From positions 1-33,196 of the forward strand of contig JARYLT010000021.1 of NCBI GenBank assembly GCA_029907515.1: a DNA stretch of 33,196 bases. Reading direction: 5' to 3'. Shown here piece by piece: positions 4,372 to 14,947 of the stretch. Source of the stretch: Spirochaetota bacterium (GTDB taxonomy: Bacteria; Spirochaetota; UBA4802; UB4802). The notes beneath the pieces were generated by a model that did not search any database, had not been told where the DNA came from, and was given only the letters and a program-made list of their open reading frames with translations. The first letter of the stretch is position 1. Each line of letters opens with the position of its first letter. Position numbers and translations under genes: made by a program.

Positions 4372-6171
4372 TTACTGCCACAATCGCTGCCGCAAACCAG
4401 AAGAGCGTATGGTAGGATTTTTCATCATATATTGCAGAATTTTTTTATTTCCAATAATAGTAAGCTTATTGCGTGCACGAGTAACTGCGGTATAAAGAAG
4501 TTCACGCGTTAACAACATCTTCCAGTGCTCATTATTGCCAATATCGATATGCGGTAAAATCAGCACTACATGATTAAATTCTGAACCCTGACTTTTATGT
4601 ACCGTTATACTGTATGCAGGAACATAGTTGGTCAAAAGCGATGTATTGATCTTTCTTGAACCATCTGCAGATACAAAATACACTGCATCATCACTGCTCT
4701 TATGAATACCCACATCACCATTGAACACATCAAGGTTATAGTCATTGGCAGTAATCATGATAATTCTACCATTATACCACTCGCCACTGATTGCAGGTCT
4801 TAATTGTTTTTCAATCAACGCATTAAATGTTTCTACTCCCCACGGTCCCCTGTTAAACGGAGTTAGTATGCATAACTCTGAAAGTTTATTAAATACATCA
4901 CTGATGTTATGCTGATCAGAAATATAACTAATAATGCTATAGTATGTTTTTGCATATCCCTGAATTGCATTATACAACCATTCAAGTGAATCATATTCCT
5001 TTAATTCAACATCGGCAAAGTTGTTGGATAGCACGTCAATTGCTTTATGTTCATCATCATTTCGTATTGCTGAAGCCAGAGCTGCTATTCCGCTATCGGC
5101 ACCAAATCTGAACGTTTTATTCAATATGACGATAGCATCTCTCAGTGGATGTGATTGCTTTTTCTTATCGTCAATGTTGCAGTTGCAGTAATCCAATAAT
5201 TTCTTTCCACTATCAGTATATGAAAATTCCGTAGTACCCCAGCATACATCACCAAAAAAAGCACCCGCTTCAACCGATGATAGCTGATCTTTATCACCAA
5301 CTAAAATTAAACGAGCAGTGCTTTTTAACGCCTTAGTCAATTTTGCCATAAGCGGAATATCAACCATAGAACACTCATCAACAATAACAACGTCATATGG
5401 CAAAGGATTTTGTTCATTATAATAAAATTCAAGCTCGCCTTTCTGATAGCCAAGGAGTCGGTGAATGGTAAAAGCTTCAGCTGGGAAATTCATCTGACTA
5501 TTGGCCACATACGTCTCTTTAAAATGAGCTATCGCCTGCATTAAACGCGATGCTGCTTTCCCCGTTGGTGCACATAATGCTATAGAACAGTCAGGATTAC
5601 TGCGTAACAATTGATATACTATTGCAGCAATTACTGTGGTTTTACCTGTACCTGGCCCACCGGAAACTACACAAAATCTGTGTTTCAACGCAGTCAACTG
5701 CGCAAGAACTTGCTCATTTGCAAAGTGAATCCCTTTTGATTGCAATTCTTCAATGGCTTTACTGCAATCTTCATAAATAGTGTTGATTTCACCCTGTGAT
5801 AGTATAAAAAATTGCAAGATTGTATTTTCATAATTAAAGTAACGATACAGGTAACAATTCCCATCCCTGTATACAAGTGGCTTTATGTGATGTTCAGTTT
5901 TTGCAAAAGCATCGCAATTCAGCACATATTGTTTTAGAGATTTTTCGTCAGGGAATACTATATCATCAATTTCAATACTTTCATCATAGATAATATTGCG
6001 CAATGATTTACTGGCGATAGTTCCCAATGAAAGGCAACTATGTCCGTTAGCTGCCATGTAGCTTACACAAAATAGTAATGCGTTCAATACTTCATCATGA
6101 CAATGATACTTACTGCAAATGAAGTTGGCAAAGTGATGGTGAATGGTTTTGGTTTTATCAATTAATTTCAT
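4372..6171 (-). CDS. recD: Exodeoxyribonuclease V alpha subunit RecD
   Basis: SF1 5'-3' helicase subunit of RecBCD, 599 residues (E. coli RecD is 608). Visible motifs in order: Walker A in VVSGGPGTGKTT (about residues 168-179), Walker B in VIVDECSMVDIPLM, motif III in LILVGDKDQLSSVEAG, and the C-terminal YSITVHKSQGSEFNHVV and YTAVTRARNKLTIIG, matching motifs V and VI. All catalytic residues appear intact. Its ATG overlaps the recB stop by four bases, and it is the last gene of the recC-recB-recD operon. About 117 bases separate it from the next gene, with no clear intrinsic terminator. Confidence 0.95.
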   Translation of the reverse strand: MKLIDKTKTIHHHFANFICSKYHCHDEVLNALLFCVSYMAANGHSCLSLGTIASKSLRNIIYDESIEIDDIVFPDEKSLKQYVLNCDAFAKTEHHIKPLVYRDGNCYLYRYFNYENTILQFFILSQGEINTIYEDCSKAIEELQSKGIHFANEQVLAQLTALKHRFCVVSGGPGTGKTTVIAAIVYQLLRSNPDCSIALCAPTGKAASRLMQAIAHFKETYVANSQMNFPAEAFTIHRLLGYQKGELEFYYNEQNPLPYDVVIVDECSMVDIPLMAKLTKALKSTARLILVGDKDQLSSVEAGAFFGDVCWGTTEFSYTDSGKKLLDYCNCNIDDKKKQSHPLRDAIVILNKTFRFGADSGIAALASAIRNDDEHKAIDVLSNNFADVELKEYDSLEWLYNAIQGYAKTYYSIISYISDQHNISDVFNKLSELCILTPFNRGPWGVETFNALIEKQLRPAISGEWYNGRIIMITANDYNLDVFNGDVGIHKSSDDAVYFVSADGSRKINTSLLTNYVPAYSITVHKSQGSEFNHVVLILPHIDIGNNEHWKMLLTRELLYTAVTRARNKLTIIGNKKILQYMMKNPTIRSSGLRQRLWQ

Positions 6172-9100
6172 AGCTTCAGCGCACCTAACAGGTTATCAAA
6201 CTTGTGTACAAATGTAACGTCTGGTTTATCATAAAATATTCCATATTCATTTCCACGATTAGCATCAACACCCCGTACAAACATATAGAACACACCGCCA
6301 AAATGTTTGTCATAGCTATATCCCTTGCCTAACAATAATTGTAAATATCTGTGAAGGGCAACAGTATAGATAGAATACTGTAAGAAATATAGATGCGAAA
6401 CAATTGCACTTCTTAGCTTAGTGTAATGATAGTCTTCTAATGAAGTGCCAAGCAGATTTGTTTTCCAGTCTACAATATAGTAGGCATTTTCATATTCAAA
6501 CACCATATCAATATAGCCATGCATAAAGCCACTTATATCTTCAAATGATAACTGTTGCAGTGCTGATGCATAATCCATGGTAAAAAGGCTGTGTTCATTA
6601 AAAAGTTGAACTAAATGCCTGCTACCAAGTTGTTCTACTGGATAATAAAACTCAATTTCATGACGCCGCTTATTGTCATGGATTTTAGATAGAACAAGAT
6701 CTTTCTCTTTTTGCAATTGTACTTTTAGCACATTGACAACCATCTTTGTTACGACATCAGCCCACACGGTATCAATGTTGTATTGTTTCAGAACATCACT
6801 GGCAATCTGCAAGATACTTGTACCATCGGCATTAAAATCAATTGTTTCAAAAATCGTATGAATGCATAAACCACTAATACTTCCCGCAGGAAACGTAAAA
6901 ACAGAGTGCTCTTTTATTTCTTCTTTACTAACAACAGGAATCTGTATTTCATCACTTTTTTCATCCTCGCGCCTGTACGATAACGATGTATAGCTTGTAA
7001 GCTGCCATCCCTGGGGAACCGATCGTTCTATTACACGCACTCCCTTTGGTTCAGGATATACGGTAACAACAGCATCAAAAGGCTTTAGTGTGATATCCGA
7101 TATTTCTTTAACAGCGATGACGCCCCCTGAATCCTGTTCTATTTTTTGTAAATCTTCCAACAATTCTTCAGAAGAAAGGTCAATACCTTTTATAAAATTT
7201 TCTTCTATGTTGTCGGCTCTATTGAGATGAAAAAGGTACCGCAAAGCTGATGTTTCCGTACTATTTATATTTCCCCATCCAACATAGCATTTAAACTTTG
7301 CACGGGTCATTGCAACATAGGCAATTCGAAGAGACTCAGCAAGTTGTTCACGTTTGGCAATATATTCCATTTCATTATAATAATTATCTGGGAATAATGA
7401 TTTCATTTCCTCAACGTCCTCTTTACTAAATCTAAAGGACACATGAGTTTTGTAGTTATTATCTGTACTATCGTGAAAAACGAATATTCTATCTAATGAA
7501 GAAGCATCAAAAAGATAAGGACAAAAAACTATAGGATACTCCAGTCCTTTACTTGCATGTATAGTAACAATTTTAACAGCATTGGCATCGGATTCCAGAC
7601 GTAATTGCTGCTCTTCAGTATCAGCTCCCACATATATGGCCTTTTTCAACCACTCAACCAGTGCTACGGGTTCTAATTTTTTCTGGCGTTCAGTATCGGC
7701 AAGTATTTCAGCACAGTGCAGTATGTTGGTTATCACCCTTTCACCATCGTAGTATTGCAAAAGCCTCCTGGCAACGGTATCGCTCTCATTTTCTTTTTTT
7801 ACTATCACATCATCATGAAGAAGGCGCTGCAGCATAACAATAACACCTTTTGCTTTCCAGGTATCAAGATATGCAGCACAGCGCATCTTCACAGTATCCA
7901 ATGTTCCCTGTTCTTCCATTTGTATAATATCATTTCCACAATACCCAAATAAGCTTGTTACCAGTGCCCGCTTTATGGCTTTTGTTGATGAGGGATTTAT
8001 AATTGCCTCAAGCACATGCAACAATTCCCACACTTCAGGTGTAGTAAATACTGACTGCCTGCTATATAAAACACTATTAATACCGTACTGTCTTAAAATA
8101 TCCTGCATCAGTTCTGCTTCATGATGCTTTCGTACCAGTATTGCTATGTCACTGTATTGTAATGCTTTGCCATCAATTTCATAGGAACCATGCGCTAACG
8201 TATGAATTTCATGGGCTATATTTTTGGCTATTATCTTACGTGCTACACCAATAGATATACTCTTTTCATTATCACTATCCCGAATAAACCATATGTCTAA
8301 TGCTCCCTGGCTAAAACATGACTCATGTATCTTAGATTCAACTGGATGATACATAATTTCATCAAATACAAACGGGTTTTCAACTCGACCAAAAATATAA
8401 TTTATAGCTCTGGTTAACGATGGTGTTGATCTGAAACTTTTAGTTAATGTATATGCAGTATCTGCACTTTGACGTGCTTTAATATACGCAAAAACATCAG
8501 CTCCTCTGAAGCTATAAATTGCCTGCTTGGGATCACCAATGATATAGAGGGTATAACCTTCTTTCCTGAATATTGTGGTAAAAATAGTATATTGTAACGG
8601 ATCAGTATCCTGAAATTCATCAATGAGTGCTGCTTTGAAACGCTCCCGAACTCGAACAGCCAATCTGCTGTCCGTACCTTGCTGTAATGCTTTATGCATA
8701 TCTTTCAGGATATCCCTGAATGAAATAATATTCCAGCGATCGCGATACCATGAGTACTGTTTGTCACTGTATTGGATAAATTCACGATATGCGGCTATTA
8801 TCTGTATCTTTATAGCAACAATAGTTTTTCTGCATTCATCAAGAAGTGTAAAAAATTCATGCCATGTATATTGCTTTTCATTTTTTTTGTATGCACCGAT
8901 CAGCCTGGACAACAAACCTGAAACTGAAAATTTTTTTATATGTTTACTAATATCTTCCTGAAACACTGTGAATTCAGAAAGCATTTCTATAGCTTGCTGT
9001 AATGTCAGTAAATCTTCTTCATTATACGATCTGCTATTCAGGACGCGCTCTGCCAGTGCTTTGAAATAATTATTCTTTATTGCATCAAACTCACGATTAA

Positions 9101-9827
9101 ATTTTTCACGAATAGCTCCAATCTGCATTGTTAGCGTATGTACCAGTTGTTTTACTTCTTTTGGGTTAAACGGTATAACAGGCATGATGGTAATATCAGG
9201 ATCATCAGGCAGTTTACGAAGAATTTCCATAAACCACCTGACAAAGTTTTCATTTTTTTGAAAAAATAATGCAACAAACTCCTCTCCAAGCGGTGCTATC
9301 TTAGAATAATAAAAATCTTCAATGACTCTTTGCATGAAAGGTGTTTCATCTTCAACAAGTTTGCTTCCATACAATGAACGGCTTTCAAAAGCAAATTCAC
9401 TTAATGTGCGGCTGCAAAAACTGTGAATGGTATAAATATGTGCTTTATCAATATCAGCAAGCGCTATTTTTAAAATATCACGTATCTCTTTTTGTGTTCG
9501 ATAGTTACTGCTATTGTTGGTAGATAAAGATTGCAGATATTCATATAACTCACTGTATTTTTGCTTTACTGCATCTTCACATCTTCCTTCAAGCATATCG
9601 TATGCAATTTTTATCAATGAACGTATCCGTGATCGAAGCTCATCAGTTGCTGCATTGGTAAATGTTACAACAAGAATATTATCAATACTGAGTCCTTTTT
9701 CAATGATAAGCCGTAAATACAGATGGCTTATGGTATAGGTTTTTCCTGTACCAGCACTTGCCTCAATGCAGTTGATGCCATCTAAAGAATATTCCCAAAA
9801 ATTGTTAACACTGCAAGGATTGTTCAT
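6168..9827 (-). CDS. recB: Exodeoxyribonuclease V beta subunit RecB
   Basis: SF1A 3'-5' helicase and nuclease subunit of RecBCD, 1219 residues (E. coli 1180). Helicase motifs: CIEASAGTGKTYTISHLYL (Walker A, about residues 20-38), ALIDEFQDTDPLQYTIF (motif II), YIIGDPKQAIYSFRGAD (motif III), VKIVTIHASKGLEYPIVF (motif V) and RIAYVAMTRAKFKCYVGWG (motif VI). The C-terminal nuclease domain has MHGYIDMVFEY (about residue 1102) and YIVDWKTNLLG (about residue 1119), giving the Asp, Asp-Trp-Lys active site, so nuclease activity is expected. ATGA overlaps join it to recC upstream and recD downstream. The recC-recB-recD order differs from the Enterobacteria, where ptrA interrupts the cluster. Confidence 0.96.
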   Translation of the reverse strand: MNNPCSVNNFWEYSLDGINCIEASAGTGKTYTISHLYLRLIIEKGLSIDNILVVTFTNAATDELRSRIRSLIKIAYDMLEGRCEDAVKQKYSELYEYLQSLSTNNSSNYRTQKEIRDILKIALADIDKAHIYTIHSFCSRTLSEFAFESRSLYGSKLVEDETPFMQRVIEDFYYSKIAPLGEEFVALFFQKNENFVRWFMEILRKLPDDPDITIMPVIPFNPKEVKQLVHTLTMQIGAIREKFNREFDAIKNNYFKALAERVLNSRSYNEEDLLTLQQAIEMLSEFTVFQEDISKHIKKFSVSGLLSRLIGAYKKNEKQYTWHEFFTLLDECRKTIVAIKIQIIAAYREFIQYSDKQYSWYRDRWNIISFRDILKDMHKALQQGTDSRLAVRVRERFKAALIDEFQDTDPLQYTIFTTIFRKEGYTLYIIGDPKQAIYSFRGADVFAYIKARQSADTAYTLTKSFRSTPSLTRAINYIFGRVENPFVFDEIMYHPVESKIHESCFSQGALDIWFIRDSDNEKSISIGVARKIIAKNIAHEIHTLAHGSYEIDGKALQYSDIAILVRKHHEAELMQDILRQYGINSVLYSRQSVFTTPEVWELLHVLEAIINPSSTKAIKRALVTSLFGYCGNDIIQMEEQGTLDTVKMRCAAYLDTWKAKGVIVMLQRLLHDDVIVKKENESDTVARRLLQYYDGERVITNILHCAEILADTERQKKLEPVALVEWLKKAIYVGADTEEQQLRLESDANAVKIVTIHASKGLEYPIVFCPYLFDASSLDRIFVFHDSTDNNYKTHVSFRFSKEDVEEMKSLFPDNYYNEMEYIAKREQLAESLRIAYVAMTRAKFKCYVGWGNINSTETSALRYLFHLNRADNIEENFIKGIDLSSEELLEDLQKIEQDSGGVIAVKEISDITLKPFDAVVTVYPEPKGVRVIERSVPQGWQLTSYTSLSYRREDEKSDEIQIPVVSKEEIKEHSVFTFPAGSISGLCIHTIFETIDFNADGTSILQIASDVLKQYNIDTVWADVVTKMVVNVLKVQLQKEKDLVLSKIHDNKRRHEIEFYYPVEQLGSRHLVQLFNEHSLFTMDYASALQQLSFEDISGFMHGYIDMVFEYENAYYIVDWKTNLLGTSLEDYHYTKLRSAIVSHLYFLQYSIYTVALHRYLQLLLGKGYSYDKHFGGVFYMFVRGVDANRGNEYGIFYDKPDVTFVHKFDNLLGALKL

Positions 9828-12800
9828 TGTGATCTTTCACATTCCTGTATCATAGTAAATATTTCTTCAGCTAATTCAGTAAATTCATAAAATACTTCTT
9901 TATTTCTAAAAATATCAACTTTGTAAAATGCTCGTCTGATATATGGCTCTGAATAATCAGGGATATTATATTCATTTTCCTCATAGAATTTTCCTTCAAT
10001 TTTATATTGAATAAATCTTCCCTTATCCTTATTCATTAACTTATAATATTCACCTGAGGTTTCTGGGAAAAACGGCAAAATGCGTTTATTTCCTTCAATA
10101 AATATATCAATACACTTTTCTAAATAGGTTTTTGCTTGATCACAAGAAATGTTTCCATAAACTATTGGTCCTACTTTATTTTTGACTATAAGATATGACG
10201 TAACTCCAAGTTCCATAGTGGCACATACAAATATATGCCATAAAAATGCCTGCAGCCTATCTCTTACTTTTTCATTGGCATACCTGTAAAAAACCTGGTT
10301 TCCACCATATAACACTGGCTTGCCTGTTATTGTTATTCCTCTTTCTGATGTATATGCCAATTCATAACTTTGTCTTTCACCTATACAATATTGCTTAACC
10401 TTATTTGCAAAATATGCCACCTCTGCATCTTTCTTTTTAACAATGATATCGCCTAACATGCCATCAGGGATAATTCCTTCTTTCTTTTTAATATACATAA
10501 ATTGATGTATATCATTACCATCTATTTTCCAGGTTACTATCTCACTATCTAATAAATAGTTATCCAGATTATCCGAAATGCTTAACAGTTCATCGCCTGT
10601 AAGCTCTATTACCTCATCACGCAAATAGATACCAAGAACTTTTGTAATAAAATGTCTAGCTGGGTTTTTAAAAAACTGAATAAGTTCATCAATAGTAATA
10701 TCAGTAATCTTTATTGGCAAATCTATCTGTGAAATTAGTGGTTGATAATCCTCTTTTTCCCCATATAATGCCCTGCTTTCTTCAAACCACAGTCTTGAAT
10801 AGGAAAAATATTTCCTGTGTTCCTGAAAGTATGCCGGATGAAAGTGATGTAAATGGTGCCTGGTAATAAGGACATCACGGATTGATGTAGATTGATCCTT
10901 TACATAAAATCCACGTTCAATATACTCAAGCAATTCACTGACAACAACAGATGGCTCTTTAAGGCTTAAGTCCTTTGGGTTTTGTCCCTGATAGCTTATA
11001 AAAAGATATTCCTGTGCTGAAATTATGCTTTCCAGAAATAAATAACGGTCATCATTGCGTTTTGAACGAATGCAGCGTGGCAATGCATCTTTGTATGTTT
11101 CATTGCGTAATATATCAAAGCTTATGTGTTCATCAAGTCGTGGGAACTCTCCATCATTCATACCAAGCAGGCACACAACCTTAAAAGGGATACTTCGCAT
11201 GGGCAGAAGCTGGCAAAAGGTAATGCCTTTACTTAAAAAATTACTGCTGACTCTTTGCTCAGAAAGAAAATCATCAATCCAGCTTTTTATAACCAAAAAC
11301 TCTATATCTTCATTAAGATTAATGTCAGTAACTATCGCCCGTAATAATGACAACAATTGTTGAATATTTTCATAATCCTGCAAATGGCTCTCCACATCAA
11401 GCATGGTGTTTATGAGGTTGTCACAAAAGTTTATCCAATCTTCCCGTTTTTTTGGTTGTTGCGCTTCATCAAAAAAACCAAATAGCGCTTCAAGAAAATT
11501 TAAAAAACATCCCAGCACAACAGCCGATGAACCTTCAACACAATCAAAGGGGATAACATCATCAACAATGCCTGCCGCATGTGGCACAGCATACCCCATC
11601 AGTAAGCGCTCAATAGCATACTGCCAGGTAAACGCATTACTTTCAGTGTGTGTATATTGTTTGCGGTGAGAAGCATCCTTCCCCCATCGTACATTGAGTT
11701 CTTCCACCCACTGATGAAAAGCCATAACAAAATGCTTTTCTATTCCAAATCTTTGAGTTATTTCTTCATAGTCAAGAAGCTCACAAACCTTATCAGCTTC
11801 AAGCCTGCCTGCCAAAACTTCAAGCACATCAGAAAATGCTGAAATAAAACGGCTTGTATTTTTATATGATTGGTCAGCAATAGCATACGGCAATACAGGC
11901 AATCCTTCCCTGTGTAATACCTGTTCATCAAATACAGCTTTGATGAATGGTGCATACACATCTATATCAGGTGCCATGACAACAATGTCATTAGGAACAA
12001 TTGCAGTAGTGTTTAATATATTGATGATATAATCACGCAGAACTTCAATCTCACGCAGTGGAGAATGACATGAATGAATTGTTATTGAATTATCATCAGG
12101 GGATATTGCCATCTTTTCATGATTACCATTTCCACGTTCAATGCAGTGTAATATATCATTTTGAATGTGGGCTAGTAACGTTGAACTATTACGAATTGTA
12201 TATTGTCCTTCATCAGTGATAGTATCATACGCATTATAATCAAGAAGCAGACCAATATATTCCTGCCCCACTTTACCCAGCGATGCCAACAGTGGATTCC
12301 CAGGTTCAAAGTGCAAATCGTTTATATTAATATTTTTAGCCTTAATCTTTTGTTGTATACGCAATAGTGCTTTTTCACTGCGTATATCAAACCAGTACTC
12401 CTTTGATGGATTAAGCTGAAAAATATTAATAGGAACAATGCTGCTTACAGCATTGAATAGTGTAATGTAATACTCTGGCAATACGGTAATGCCAAATAAA
12501 AATACCCCATCAGCTAATTTTTCCTTCAACACCTGTGTATTCTTTGGATCATTTAACGCTTTAATAATATGTTCATGAAGTTGCGCTTTATGGCAAATTT
12601 TTGAATCAGCGGAAATGTTGTTTTTGATATATCGCCACAGCAACACCTGCCAGGCATTTGATGGTTCCTTTTCCCACTGAAGAATATCCCCGTAAAAATA
12701 CACACTATATTCATCATACATATAGGCAAGCCTGTGGGCAAGCTGATATAATCGCACCTGACTTATTGTACCATCAACTACAAGATACTGCTTAACTGGT

Positions 12801-13132
12801 TCAAATGGCTTTTCATCTAAACACTGTGGCAATAATGAAACAATAAGCCACACCAGAGCTTTATTGGTATACAGTGGCGATAGTTCATAGTCAGGAATCA
12901 CTGCCTTAAAAATTTCCTGGGCAAAGTTTTCCGGGAAAGGGAATCTGCAGTTTAAAAACACACCAAACTGCTGAGCCAACTTTAGCGAAATCCACCGTTG
13001 CATCCCCAAACTTTGAACAATAACAGTACTTGGGGACAGAATATTATTCTTTTTTTGATAAAGTTTTTTACCTAATTGCTTGGCTAAATATTCAAGGTTG
13101 TTACTGGTATAAAGATTAACCACTTTTCTCAA
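9824..13132 (-). CDS. recC: Exodeoxyribonuclease V gamma subunit RecC
   Basis: Inactivated-helicase scaffold and Chi-recognition subunit, 1102 residues (E. coli 1122). The N terminus VNLYTSNNLEYLAKQLGKKL matches the family opening. MQRWISLKLAQQFGVFLNC (about residue 45), LFGITVLPEYYITLFNAV, FLKSGITFCQLLPMRSIPF-like text and VVCLLGMNDGEFPRLD are typical RecC landmarks. No Walker A is visible, as expected for RecC. The start is a TTG at 13132 with GGAGG four bases upstream. That TTG overlaps the TGA stop of the truncated MNT frame (TTGA), so recC translation may depend on that leader. RecB follows with a four-base overlap. Confidence 0.93.
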   Translation of the reverse strand: MRKVVNLYTSNNLEYLAKQLGKKLYQKKNNILSPSTVIVQSLGMQRWISLKLAQQFGVFLNCRFPFPENFAQEIFKAVIPDYELSPLYTNKALVWLIVSLLPQCLDEKPFEPVKQYLVVDGTISQVRLYQLAHRLAYMYDEYSVYFYGDILQWEKEPSNAWQVLLWRYIKNNISADSKICHKAQLHEHIIKALNDPKNTQVLKEKLADGVFLFGITVLPEYYITLFNAVSSIVPINIFQLNPSKEYWFDIRSEKALLRIQQKIKAKNININDLHFEPGNPLLASLGKVGQEYIGLLLDYNAYDTITDEGQYTIRNSSTLLAHIQNDILHCIERGNGNHEKMAISPDDNSITIHSCHSPLREIEVLRDYIINILNTTAIVPNDIVVMAPDIDVYAPFIKAVFDEQVLHREGLPVLPYAIADQSYKNTSRFISAFSDVLEVLAGRLEADKVCELLDYEEITQRFGIEKHFVMAFHQWVEELNVRWGKDASHRKQYTHTESNAFTWQYAIERLLMGYAVPHAAGIVDDVIPFDCVEGSSAVVLGCFLNFLEALFGFFDEAQQPKKREDWINFCDNLINTMLDVESHLQDYENIQQLLSLLRAIVTDINLNEDIEFLVIKSWIDDFLSEQRVSSNFLSKGITFCQLLPMRSIPFKVVCLLGMNDGEFPRLDEHISFDILRNETYKDALPRCIRSKRNDDRYLFLESIISAQEYLFISYQGQNPKDLSLKEPSVVVSELLEYIERGFYVKDQSTSIRDVLITRHHLHHFHPAYFQEHRKYFSYSRLWFEESRALYGEKEDYQPLISQIDLPIKITDITIDELIQFFKNPARHFITKVLGIYLRDEVIELTGDELLSISDNLDNYLLDSEIVTWKIDGNDIHQFMYIKKKEGIIPDGMLGDIIVKKKDAEVAYFANKVKQYCIGERQSYELAYTSERGITITGKPVLYGGNQVFYRYANEKVRDRLQAFLWHIFVCATMELGVTSYLIVKNKVGPIVYGNISCDQAKTYLEKCIDIFIEGNKRILPFFPETSGEYYKLMNKDKGRFIQYKIEGKFYEENEYNIPDYSEPYIRRAFYKVDIFRNKEVFYEFTELAEEIFTMIQECERSQ

Positions 13133-13271: not shown

Positions 13272-13667
13272 CTAATTGCTTTCTTTAAAAGTATCAATAG
13301 TTTGTATAATTACTTTAACAAACTCTTCTGCCATCAATAACCACTCATGCACCAATTCTTTTTTAAATTCAACAAAATCTTCATAATCACCACGCTGTCT
13401 AAATTCAAACATTTTATTGTAAAATTCTCCATATTTAACAGGAACAATACCTGTTTTTATAAACTCTTTATTAAACAATCCCTTTACACCACTATGTTTT
13501 GATGAGGATAAATCTTTAACCAATAATAATGAAATAACTGCATAAAATAATGAATAATATATTCTATTAACTGTAGCAAACAACCTGTTATTGTTAAAAA
13601 GAAGTTTTGCTTCTTCAAGCGTTTCCAATGCGCGTGTTTTTCTATAATCAATTAACTCACGTTTCAT
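13272..13667 (-). CDS. HEPN domain protein (toxin-type partner of MNT)
   Basis: 131-residue helical protein of the HEPN superfamily (PF05168-like). The segment TVNRIYYSLFYAVISLLL (about residues 36-53) and the later FEFRQRGDYEDFVEFKKEL (about residues 87-105) match the family's conserved NR-YY-x-F-A and RxxADY regions. Many HEPN toxins are RNases with an Rx4-6H motif. I do not see a clear Rx4-6HxY here, so RNase activity is uncertain. It starts four bases inside the MNT stop (ATGA overlap), the standard layout of MNT/HEPN toxin-antitoxin pairs, and is followed 23 bases later by the MNT remnant and recC. HEPN/MNT pairs are known as toxin-antitoxin or abortive-infection modules. This pair's action is inferred. 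Confidence 0.8.
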   Translation of the reverse strand: MKRELIDYRKTRALETLEEAKLLFNNNRLFATVNRIYYSLFYAVISLLLVKDLSSSKHSGVKGLFNKEFIKTGIVPVKYGEFYNKMFEFRQRGDYEDFVEFKKELVHEWLLMAEEFVKVIIQTIDTFKESN

Positions 13668-14011
13668 TGTGTAATAACACCATCTTTTTGAATACTATCA
13701 TACAATGGAATATATTTAGCTTTATCAGAATACCACAACATTTTAGCTTCTACTATTATGCCAAATACCACATCATATTTTAATTCAATTTGATAGGCAA
13801 CATTGAAAATATTTTCCCTTACATAATCATCAACACTCCCATCAAGCAACATAAGAATATCGATATCGGAATCATTACTACTATCGCCACGTGCTTTTGA
13901 TCCAAATAATATTAACTCTGCATCGGGATAGTGCATTTGTATTATTTTCTTTAACTCAAGTATTGCCTGCCTTTCATTTTCCTTTAATGCTATTTCATCC
14001 AGTGTTTTCAT
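13664..14011 (-). CDS. MNT (minimal nucleotidyltransferase) antitoxin
   Basis: 115-residue protein of the polymerase-beta nucleotidyltransferase fold. It shows the family signature LILFGSKARGDSSNDSDIDI (about residues 33-52) with GSxxRG and the metal-binding DxD, so catalytic residues are present. Antitoxins of this type modify the HEPN partner by transferring AMP to a tyrosine. Here the partner is the overlapping downstream gene. A 49-bp internal segment is repeated in the truncated copy in front of recC. The start ATG at 14011 follows a long AT-rich leader without a strong Shine-Dalgarno sequence. It heads the apparent transcript MNT-HEPN-remnant-recC-recB-recD. Confidence 0.85.
   Translation of the reverse strand: MKTLDEIALKENERQAILELKKIIQMHYPDAELILFGSKARGDSSNDSDIDILMLLDGSVDDYVRENIFNVAYQIELKYDVVFGIIVEAKMLWYSDKAKYIPLYDSIQKDGVITQ
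13918..13966. repeat. 49-bp perfect direct repeat, copy 2 (in intact MNT gene)
   Basis: Identical to 13161-13209, same orientation. It encodes roughly residues 16-31 of the intact MNT protein, immediately before its catalytic motif. Confidence 0.9.
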
Positions 14012-14365: not shown

Positions 14366-14572
14366 TTAGCTTTTTTCTTTAACTTTGTCCACAACCCGGC
14401 GGACATCAGATAAACATCACCTTTTTTCAGGGTGGTTTACTGCACAATTGCACTGATTAAGGCGTTTTGCAGCAACTATCCTTTCATATATAGTGGAAGA
14501 GCCATTGGCCTTTAAATCATTTATAATATCTTCTTCTGTATATTTGAAACAATAACAAATATATTCTTTCAT
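14366..14572 (-). CDS. CopZ-N/BFD-like [2Fe-2S] protein, candidate selenoprotein (in-frame TGA)
   Basis: A strong Shine-Dalgarno (GAGGTGA) precedes an ATG opening MKEYICYCFKYTEEDI. The product has CxC at residues 6-8 and CxC at 41-43, then NHPEKR, then a TGA at 14417-14419, then in the same frame C-L-S-D-V-R-R-V-V-D-K-V-K-E-K-S and TAA. The pattern resembles the [2Fe-2S] domain of CopZ and BFD-like ferredoxins, which as I recall ends NPxGRCC followed by a short helix. The TGA thus sits where the first Cys of that CC pair belongs, giving Sec-Cys if read through (68 residues). A SECIS-like hairpin follows. Without readthrough the product is 51 residues ending at Arg. Alternatives are a nonsense mutation in a once-normal Cys gene or natural termination. 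Family members carry or traffic metal or electrons, and the partner here is unknown. Confidence 0.65.
14386..14405 (-). promoter_or_regulatory. Putative bacterial SECIS hairpin
   Basis: On the minus strand the 7-bp stem TGTCCGC/GTGGACA (one G-U pair) closes the 6-base loop CGGGTT. The loop starts 18 bases after the TGA at 14417-14419. Bacterial SECIS elements lie directly downstream of the Sec codon, with the apical loop about 16-37 bases away and a G in its first two positions. This hairpin meets all three. A 7-bp hairpin can arise by chance, so it supports but does not prove Sec insertion. Confidence 0.5.
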
Positions 14573-14633
14573 AATGTCACCTCACTTATATGATAATAAT
14601 GTAAATAGATTATTTGAAACTGACTTATCTAAC

Positions 14634-14748: not shown

Positions 14749-14928
14749 TTACTTGTTTCTTGCAAGCAAACCATACGTGTCTTCAATGGATTTGCTAACA
14801 GGAATGATTTTTATTTCACCCTTTTCTAACCTGAAATACAATGTATCTCCAGTTTTAAGATTGAGATTATCTCTTACAACTTTAGGAATTGTAATTTGTC
14901 CTTTACCTGTCAAAGTTGAATAAGGCAT
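14749..14928 (-). CDS. AbrB/SpoVT-type DNA-binding protein (orphan antitoxin-like)
   Basis: 59-residue swapped-hairpin DNA-binding protein. The pattern MPYSTLTGKGQITIPKVVRD followed by NLKTGDTLYFRLEKGEI is the full SpoVT-AbrB domain. The rest is a short tail ending LLARNK, as in antitoxins of the VapB/PrlF type. The ATG at 14928 has GGGGA five bases upstream. An in-frame TTG at 14943 is less likely. Such antitoxins normally sit just before a PIN-domain VapC toxin, but none follows. The next 180 bases have only a short open stretch and then the FNR-type promoter. It may act alone as a regulator of the neighbouring gene or be left over from a lost toxin-antitoxin pair. Confidence 0.8.
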   Translation of the reverse strand: MPYSTLTGKGQITIPKVVRDNLNLKTGDTLYFRLEKGEIKIIPVSKSIEDTYGLLARNK

Positions 14929-14947
14929 AAAATCCCCACACAATGAT

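Follow-up and report, generated by a model that had tools for sequence, protein, structure and literature searches.

Whether a TGA codon inside a small gene of a Spirochaetota bacterium is a stop or a selenocysteine (Sec) codon is the question raised by the window, the whole 33,196-nt stretch of DNA analysed here. The sequence-only reading had placed a small gene with a ribosome-binding site at 14366-14572, leaving its strand unstated; the coordinates are right and the strand is minus. The gene runs from ATG (14572-14570) to TAA (14368-14366) and has homologues with the same TGA; a purine-rich, Shine-Dalgarno-like GAGGTGA, read directly from the sequence, lies 4 nt 5' of the ATG (14577-14583, minus strand). 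The product of 68 residues starts MKEYICYCF… and runs QCNCAVNHPEKR-U-CLSDVRRVVDKVKEKS, the gene being read as MKEYICYCFKYTEEDIINDLKANGSSTIYERIVAAKRLNQCNCAVNHPEKR-U-CLSDVRRVVDKVKEKS and then TAA. As had been described, TGA at codon 52 (14419-14417, minus strand) is followed by coding sequence in the same frame as far as the TAA. This begins with TGT for Cys53 (14414-14416, minus strand), the partner of residue 52 in the alignment, and continues with a conserved C-terminal helix (LSDVRRVVDKVKEKS; 14369-14413, minus strand), which is part of the protein and is predicted by AlphaFold2 as helix 54-67. The alternative is an ordinary protein of 51 residues ending at the TGA, with the open frame and a hairpin beyond it present by chance, and translation of a UGA is invisible from DNA.

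The genome of the window has selD, a tRNA-Sec, selA and selB on one contig (C8), each above its curated cut-off, with the tRNA assigned by ARAGORN as SeC with anticodon TCA; the host of the gene thus has the complete selA, selB, selD and tRNA-Sec(TCA) set of a selenoprotein-producing bacterium. The selD frame (L010, C8:4137-5063) contains its own in-frame TGA (SGUAAK), and the selenophosphate synthetase of this genome is probably itself a selenoprotein, so, counting the small gene, at least two TGAs are very probably read as Sec. An in-frame TGA that is read through could also arise if TGA were recoded throughout the genome (e.g., to Trp) or suppressed without Sec. However, of 17 long window genes counted, 8 end in TGA, which is therefore a normal stop, the aligned residue in homologues is Cys and not Trp, and a SECIS element comes together with the complete Sec machinery; genome-wide recoding was rejected, and this account is exceedingly improbable. 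In the preferred reading, UGA-52 is decoded as Sec by the SelA, SelB, SelD and tRNA-Sec of the genome itself, directed by the in-frame hairpin downstream.

The first search for relatives covered 59 genomes, including that of the window. Two others have the gene, with one TGA each, namely a congener (82%) and the MAG Spirochaetes bacterium ADurb.Bin218 (75%), from another family of the same order. The gene is sporadic in this order, being found in 3 of 46 genomes, all with the same TGA. A named scan found TGA-bearing loci in MAGs of Nitrospirae, Deltaproteobacteria and Desulfobulbus, and relatives with a CC pair in Bacteriovoracaceae and Bdellovibrionaceae MAGs. Model searches, the group labels of the matches being taken from the seed loci, hit 114 of 258 genomes (~44%) in the class to which the Desulfobulbus genome belongs. 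Among the matches listed there, only five places are without TGA, three of them being fragments that stop short of residue 52. Of 296 genomes in the phylum of the Nitrospirae genome, 38 gave a match, 21 with TGA and the rest as Cys forms. In total, these searches of Desulfobacterota- and Nitrospirae-type genomes returned >130 TGA-bearing copies, and a plasmid search gave Cys-type relatives only, at 32-43% identity. Besides the window, 49 loci passed a strict pattern, giving 50 aligned TGA loci; L053, L061, L069, L083 and L084 fall outside this pattern, the protein being visible by eye in L053, L069 and L083. In L038, from a Desulforhopalus MAG, the homology to the Sec protein ends after ~24 residues and is followed by repeats with CCCCxTGAGGGG, perhaps marking a disrupted copy.

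In the aligned column close relatives have TGA and more distant ones have Cys, the first of the family CC pair, and the helix downstream is kept in both; the in-frame UGA is thus kept between species, takes the place of a family cysteine and leaves the coding sequence to continue, as had been supposed. Since independent genomes have the same codon, a sequencing error at 14417-14419 is ruled out. Codon 52 is TGA in all 50 aligned loci, and the chalcogen residues C6, C8, C41, C43, U52 and C53 are invariant among them. When the Cys-form locus L037 is added (51 members, position 52 being Sec in the 50 and Cys in L037), the invariant columns are C6, C8, C41, C43, P48, 52, 53 and D56.

The distribution of the Sec machinery follows that of the codon, as selA was found in 6/6 TGA-form genomes tested (that of the window and five others) and in none of the six Cys-form genomes tested. 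The two forms also differ in architecture. The TGA forms are short, in most cases with a start codon a few residues ahead of the CYC, whereas nearly all of the Cys places of the Nitrospirae-seeded set are in open frames of at least 150 residues, and the Cys forms read individually have an N-terminal half with CxxC motifs. A stand-alone Cys form also exists (L037), so the correlation of Sec with the short form and of Cys with the long one is strong but not absolute. In L096 and L098, Cys-form CopZ-N relatives are seen by eye to run straight into a MerT-like membrane protein or to lie next to one, which for the Cys branch points to the handling of mercury or copper.

The hairpin (14386-14405, minus strand) has a stem of 7 bp, TGTCCGC/GTGGACA, and the loop CGGGTT; it starts 11 nt past the TGA, with the loop 18 nt away, exactly as the sequence-only reading had described. 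The hairpin region has 65% GC, against 32% over codons 1-51 of the gene. Its 20 nt fold at -8.8 kcal/mol, whereas synonymous recodings average -1.0 kcal/mol and 0.25% of them fold as well; a hairpin arising by chance was rejected on the rarity of such recodings. The fold of a 42-nt segment has a z-score of only -2.0 against dinucleotide shuffles, which makes the fold modest evidence when taken in isolation, a point in favor of the 51-residue protein. Published constraints for bacterial SECIS elements (bSECIS) ask for a loop of 3-9 nt, a stem of 4-16 bp, a G among the first two loop nucleotides, a distance of 16-37 nt from the UGA and an MFE <= -7.5 (PMC13188914). The window hairpin agrees with all of these (loop of 6, stem of 7, CGGGTT, 18 nt, -8.8 kcal/mol), and, together with the covariation described below, this supports the comparison with bacterial SECIS elements that had been made from the sequence.

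From the TGA through the hairpin, the 50 loci align without gaps. Over the seven stem pairs, 95.6% of the cells pair and three pairs have changed on both sides, giving 14 compensatory cells against 4.3 in shuffles (0/500), while controls slid along the alignment have 21-62% of cells paired and 0-6 compensatory cells. In L066 the stem is swapped for GTTAACC/GGTTAAC, with the encoded residues altered accordingly. Averaged over the loci, the hairpin folds at -9.7 kcal/mol, while synonymous recodings that follow local codon usage average -2.3 kcal/mol; taken singly, 48 of the 50 loci are below 0.05. Between the window gene and that of the congener, codons 56-62 are identical (7/7), whereas 16 of the 51 upstream codons differ synonymously; in a more distant relative 2 of these 7 codons differ, both in the loop. 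Conservation across the 50 loci settles, as far as comparison of sequences allows, that the hairpin is not due to chance. For a protein ending at residue 51, these compensatory changes would be unexpected, as would the UC-x-x-D-V-x-x-V segment kept downstream across three phylum-level groups, the Cys homologues that continue through this position, and the presence of SelA with the TGA form (6/6) but not with the Cys form (0/6). The 51-residue protein is therefore very improbable, and it is nearly certain, from this comparative evidence, that the window has a genuine selenoprotein gene of the CopZ-N/BFD-like family.

Kinship with the CopZ N-terminal domain, another proposal made from the sequence alone, is confirmed by the NCBIfam matches (51/51 members match CopZ_Nterm_CC and 48/51 match CopZ_Nterm_CU) and by the family profile, which has one significant match among solved structures, PDB 2HU9 (E 6e-5). 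The title of this entry names a mercuric transport protein periplasmic component, and we take it to be the CopZ N-terminal domain of Archaeoglobus fulgidus. Its CYC...C...NPxGRCC aligns residue by residue with the window protein, the single-sequence alignment giving C6=C75, C8=C77, C43=C109, U52=C118 and C53=C119, all Cys in the structure; 2HU9 differs in being longer, with an extra N-terminal half, and in having no Sec. By these matches, the product is the stand-alone C-terminal half of the CopZ N-terminal domain, that is, the BFD-like [2Fe-2S] domain. The best family match is the metallochaperone model CopZ_Nterm_CC (NF047645, E 1.5e-11), which has CC and not UC and covers 138 positions, including an N-terminal half absent from the window protein; the score is 44.7 bits, over the C-terminal part only, against a cut-off of 100. 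The Csac_0668 family, CopZ_Nterm_CU (NF045877, E 1.7e-10), has a homologous C-terminal domain but carries Sec second in the pair (CU), and the window protein matches positions 98-159 only of its 161, with 41.1 bits against a cut-off of 190; membership in this family was rejected on account of the reversed place of Sec in the pair and a score far under the cut-off. In both cases the low score follows from the presence of only the C-terminal part of the model.

The gene is of a kind already known, since reviews list CopZ-family (2Fe-2S) selenoproteins of form 1 and form 2, the later one giving the motifs GxUC and CU (PMC13188914, PMC9312934), and it belongs to a widespread bacterial family listed among the known selenoproteins. 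Like form 1 (cd10141, WP_245779778.1), it has a UC pair, with Sec before Cys, in a CopZ-like BFD domain. Compared by listed motif only, form 1 has GxUC, while the window gene and the congener have KRUC, ADurb.Bin218 and many other relatives have GRUC, and some members have still other residues, so Gly is not invariant in the set. The sequence-only reading had considered a Sec-Cys pair at a metal-cluster position to be chemically unusual; the pair itself has precedents in these reviews, and its position at a cluster is predicted from homology. CopZ is not named in the main text of the 2008 source paper that the reviews cite. The short stand-alone form, the usually longer architecture of the Cys relatives and the adjacency to ACR3-like genes described below are apparently undescribed in the searchable literature, which leaves out most subscription papers. 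Within that literature, the additions made here are the breadth of the short form, the SECIS covariation, the split in architecture between Sec and Cys forms and the arsenic neighbors.

The AlphaFold2 model of the protein has a pLDDT of 92.6, and its top three PDB neighbors in Foldseek are Bfd ferredoxins (TM-scores 0.57-0.70), with E-values of 1.2-2.2 that are not significant, so the likeness to Bfd is suggestive only. The CxC start and the predicted fold are shared with Bfd, and residues 4-32 score 17.4 bits against PF04324 (Fer2_BFD; gathering cut-off 26). Bfd is not known to have the UC/CC pair. Binding of a [2Fe-2S] cluster is predicted from homology to CopZ-N/BFD, and C6, C8 and C43, with one of U52 and C53, would hold it. 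In Bfd the last ligand presumably comes immediately ahead of the final helix; as a lead, this would favor C53 as the ligand and leave U52 as the free selenol. That Sec52 is itself a direct ligand, which would give a natural selenolate-ligated cluster in a widespread family of anaerobes, with arsenic handling in some lineages, is improbable.

Beyond these four likely ligands, two further chalcogens would suit metal(loid) binding or redox work, and here it is proposed that the adjacent selenol-thiol pair together with C41 may form a soft-metal(loid) or redox site, in what would be a small protein that handles metal(loid)s or acts in redox chemistry in the cytosol. The protein may instead be a Bfd-type ferredoxin devoted to electron transfer alone, acting in cluster release or with a reductase partner, in which a Sec ligand tunes the potential and no metal(loid) site exists. 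The fold neighbors, the name of the homologous CopZ-N family ([2Fe-2S]-binding in NCBIfam) and the thioredoxin-like genes upstream in four loci fit such a ferredoxin; the two invariant chalcogens in excess of four ligands (C41 and either U52 or C53) and the arsenic-operon and MerR-type regulator neighbors in part of the family do not, and it is a serious contender that falls short of being probable. Sec-Cys pairs are typical redox motifs, and the U52-C53 pair could also, as a vicinal selenenylsulfide, be the active site of a selenium-dependent redox enzyme, to which a cluster, if present, would only feed electrons. Thioredoxin-like and ArsC-like neighbors in some loci agree with this, while no catalytic domain is found beyond the helical unit of 68 residues and no partner is constant across lineages, which makes such an enzyme unlikely. 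Taken as a whole, the preferred explanation is highly probable; for the metal(loid) or redox role considered separately, the case is tentative, slightly short of even.

The neighbors of the window gene give no functional clue. It stands alone, between a MazE/AbrB-like gene on one side and a HEPN-nucleotidyltransferase pair on the other, and among the genes scanned around it and its two close relatives no metal-resistance neighbors were found; in the congener, an RmuC gene follows the selenoprotein gene. Upstream, the MazE/AbrB-like gene of 64 residues (14749-14943, minus strand) is alone, with no adjoining toxin ORF recognised. The HEPN and minimal nucleotidyltransferase gene pair (13272-14011, minus strand) is toxin-antitoxin-like. 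The window also has a recC-recB-recD run (4372-13132, minus strand), in a spirochaete.

In other lineages, an ACR3-like gene is found within ~1.6 kb in 12 of the 49 other loci (10 Nitrospirae-seeded and 2 Desulfobulbus-seeded), in related genomes, so that this is not a count of independent events. Three of the ACR3-like genes, sampled from the Nitrospirae-seeded set, pass the ACR3 equivalog cut-off. In L071, L072, L073, L076-L081 and L088 the Sec gene is just downstream of ACR3-like arsenite efflux pump genes, and ArsR lies between them or close by, in some cases along with a thioredoxin-like gene. ArsR, LMW-phosphatase-type ArsC-like, MerR and thioredoxin-like neighbors recur in smaller numbers. 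The ACR3 of the window genome is on another contig than the selenoprotein gene. In L055, a gene adjoining the UC selenoprotein (L055:1075-1404) matches NF049942, 'DF family (seleno)protein', above the cut-off. In some lineages the protein may thus have been recruited to arsenic-resistance operons; no link of the family to arsenic was found in the literature searched.

Because of the in-frame TGA, and because no NCBIfam model scores it above its cut-off, this gene would probably be cut short or missed by ordinary annotation. With its fixed UC pair in a minimal domain of 66 residues, the protein offers a compact system for asking whether a natural Sec ligates an Fe-S cluster, and the arsenic-operon neighbors give the family a testable function.
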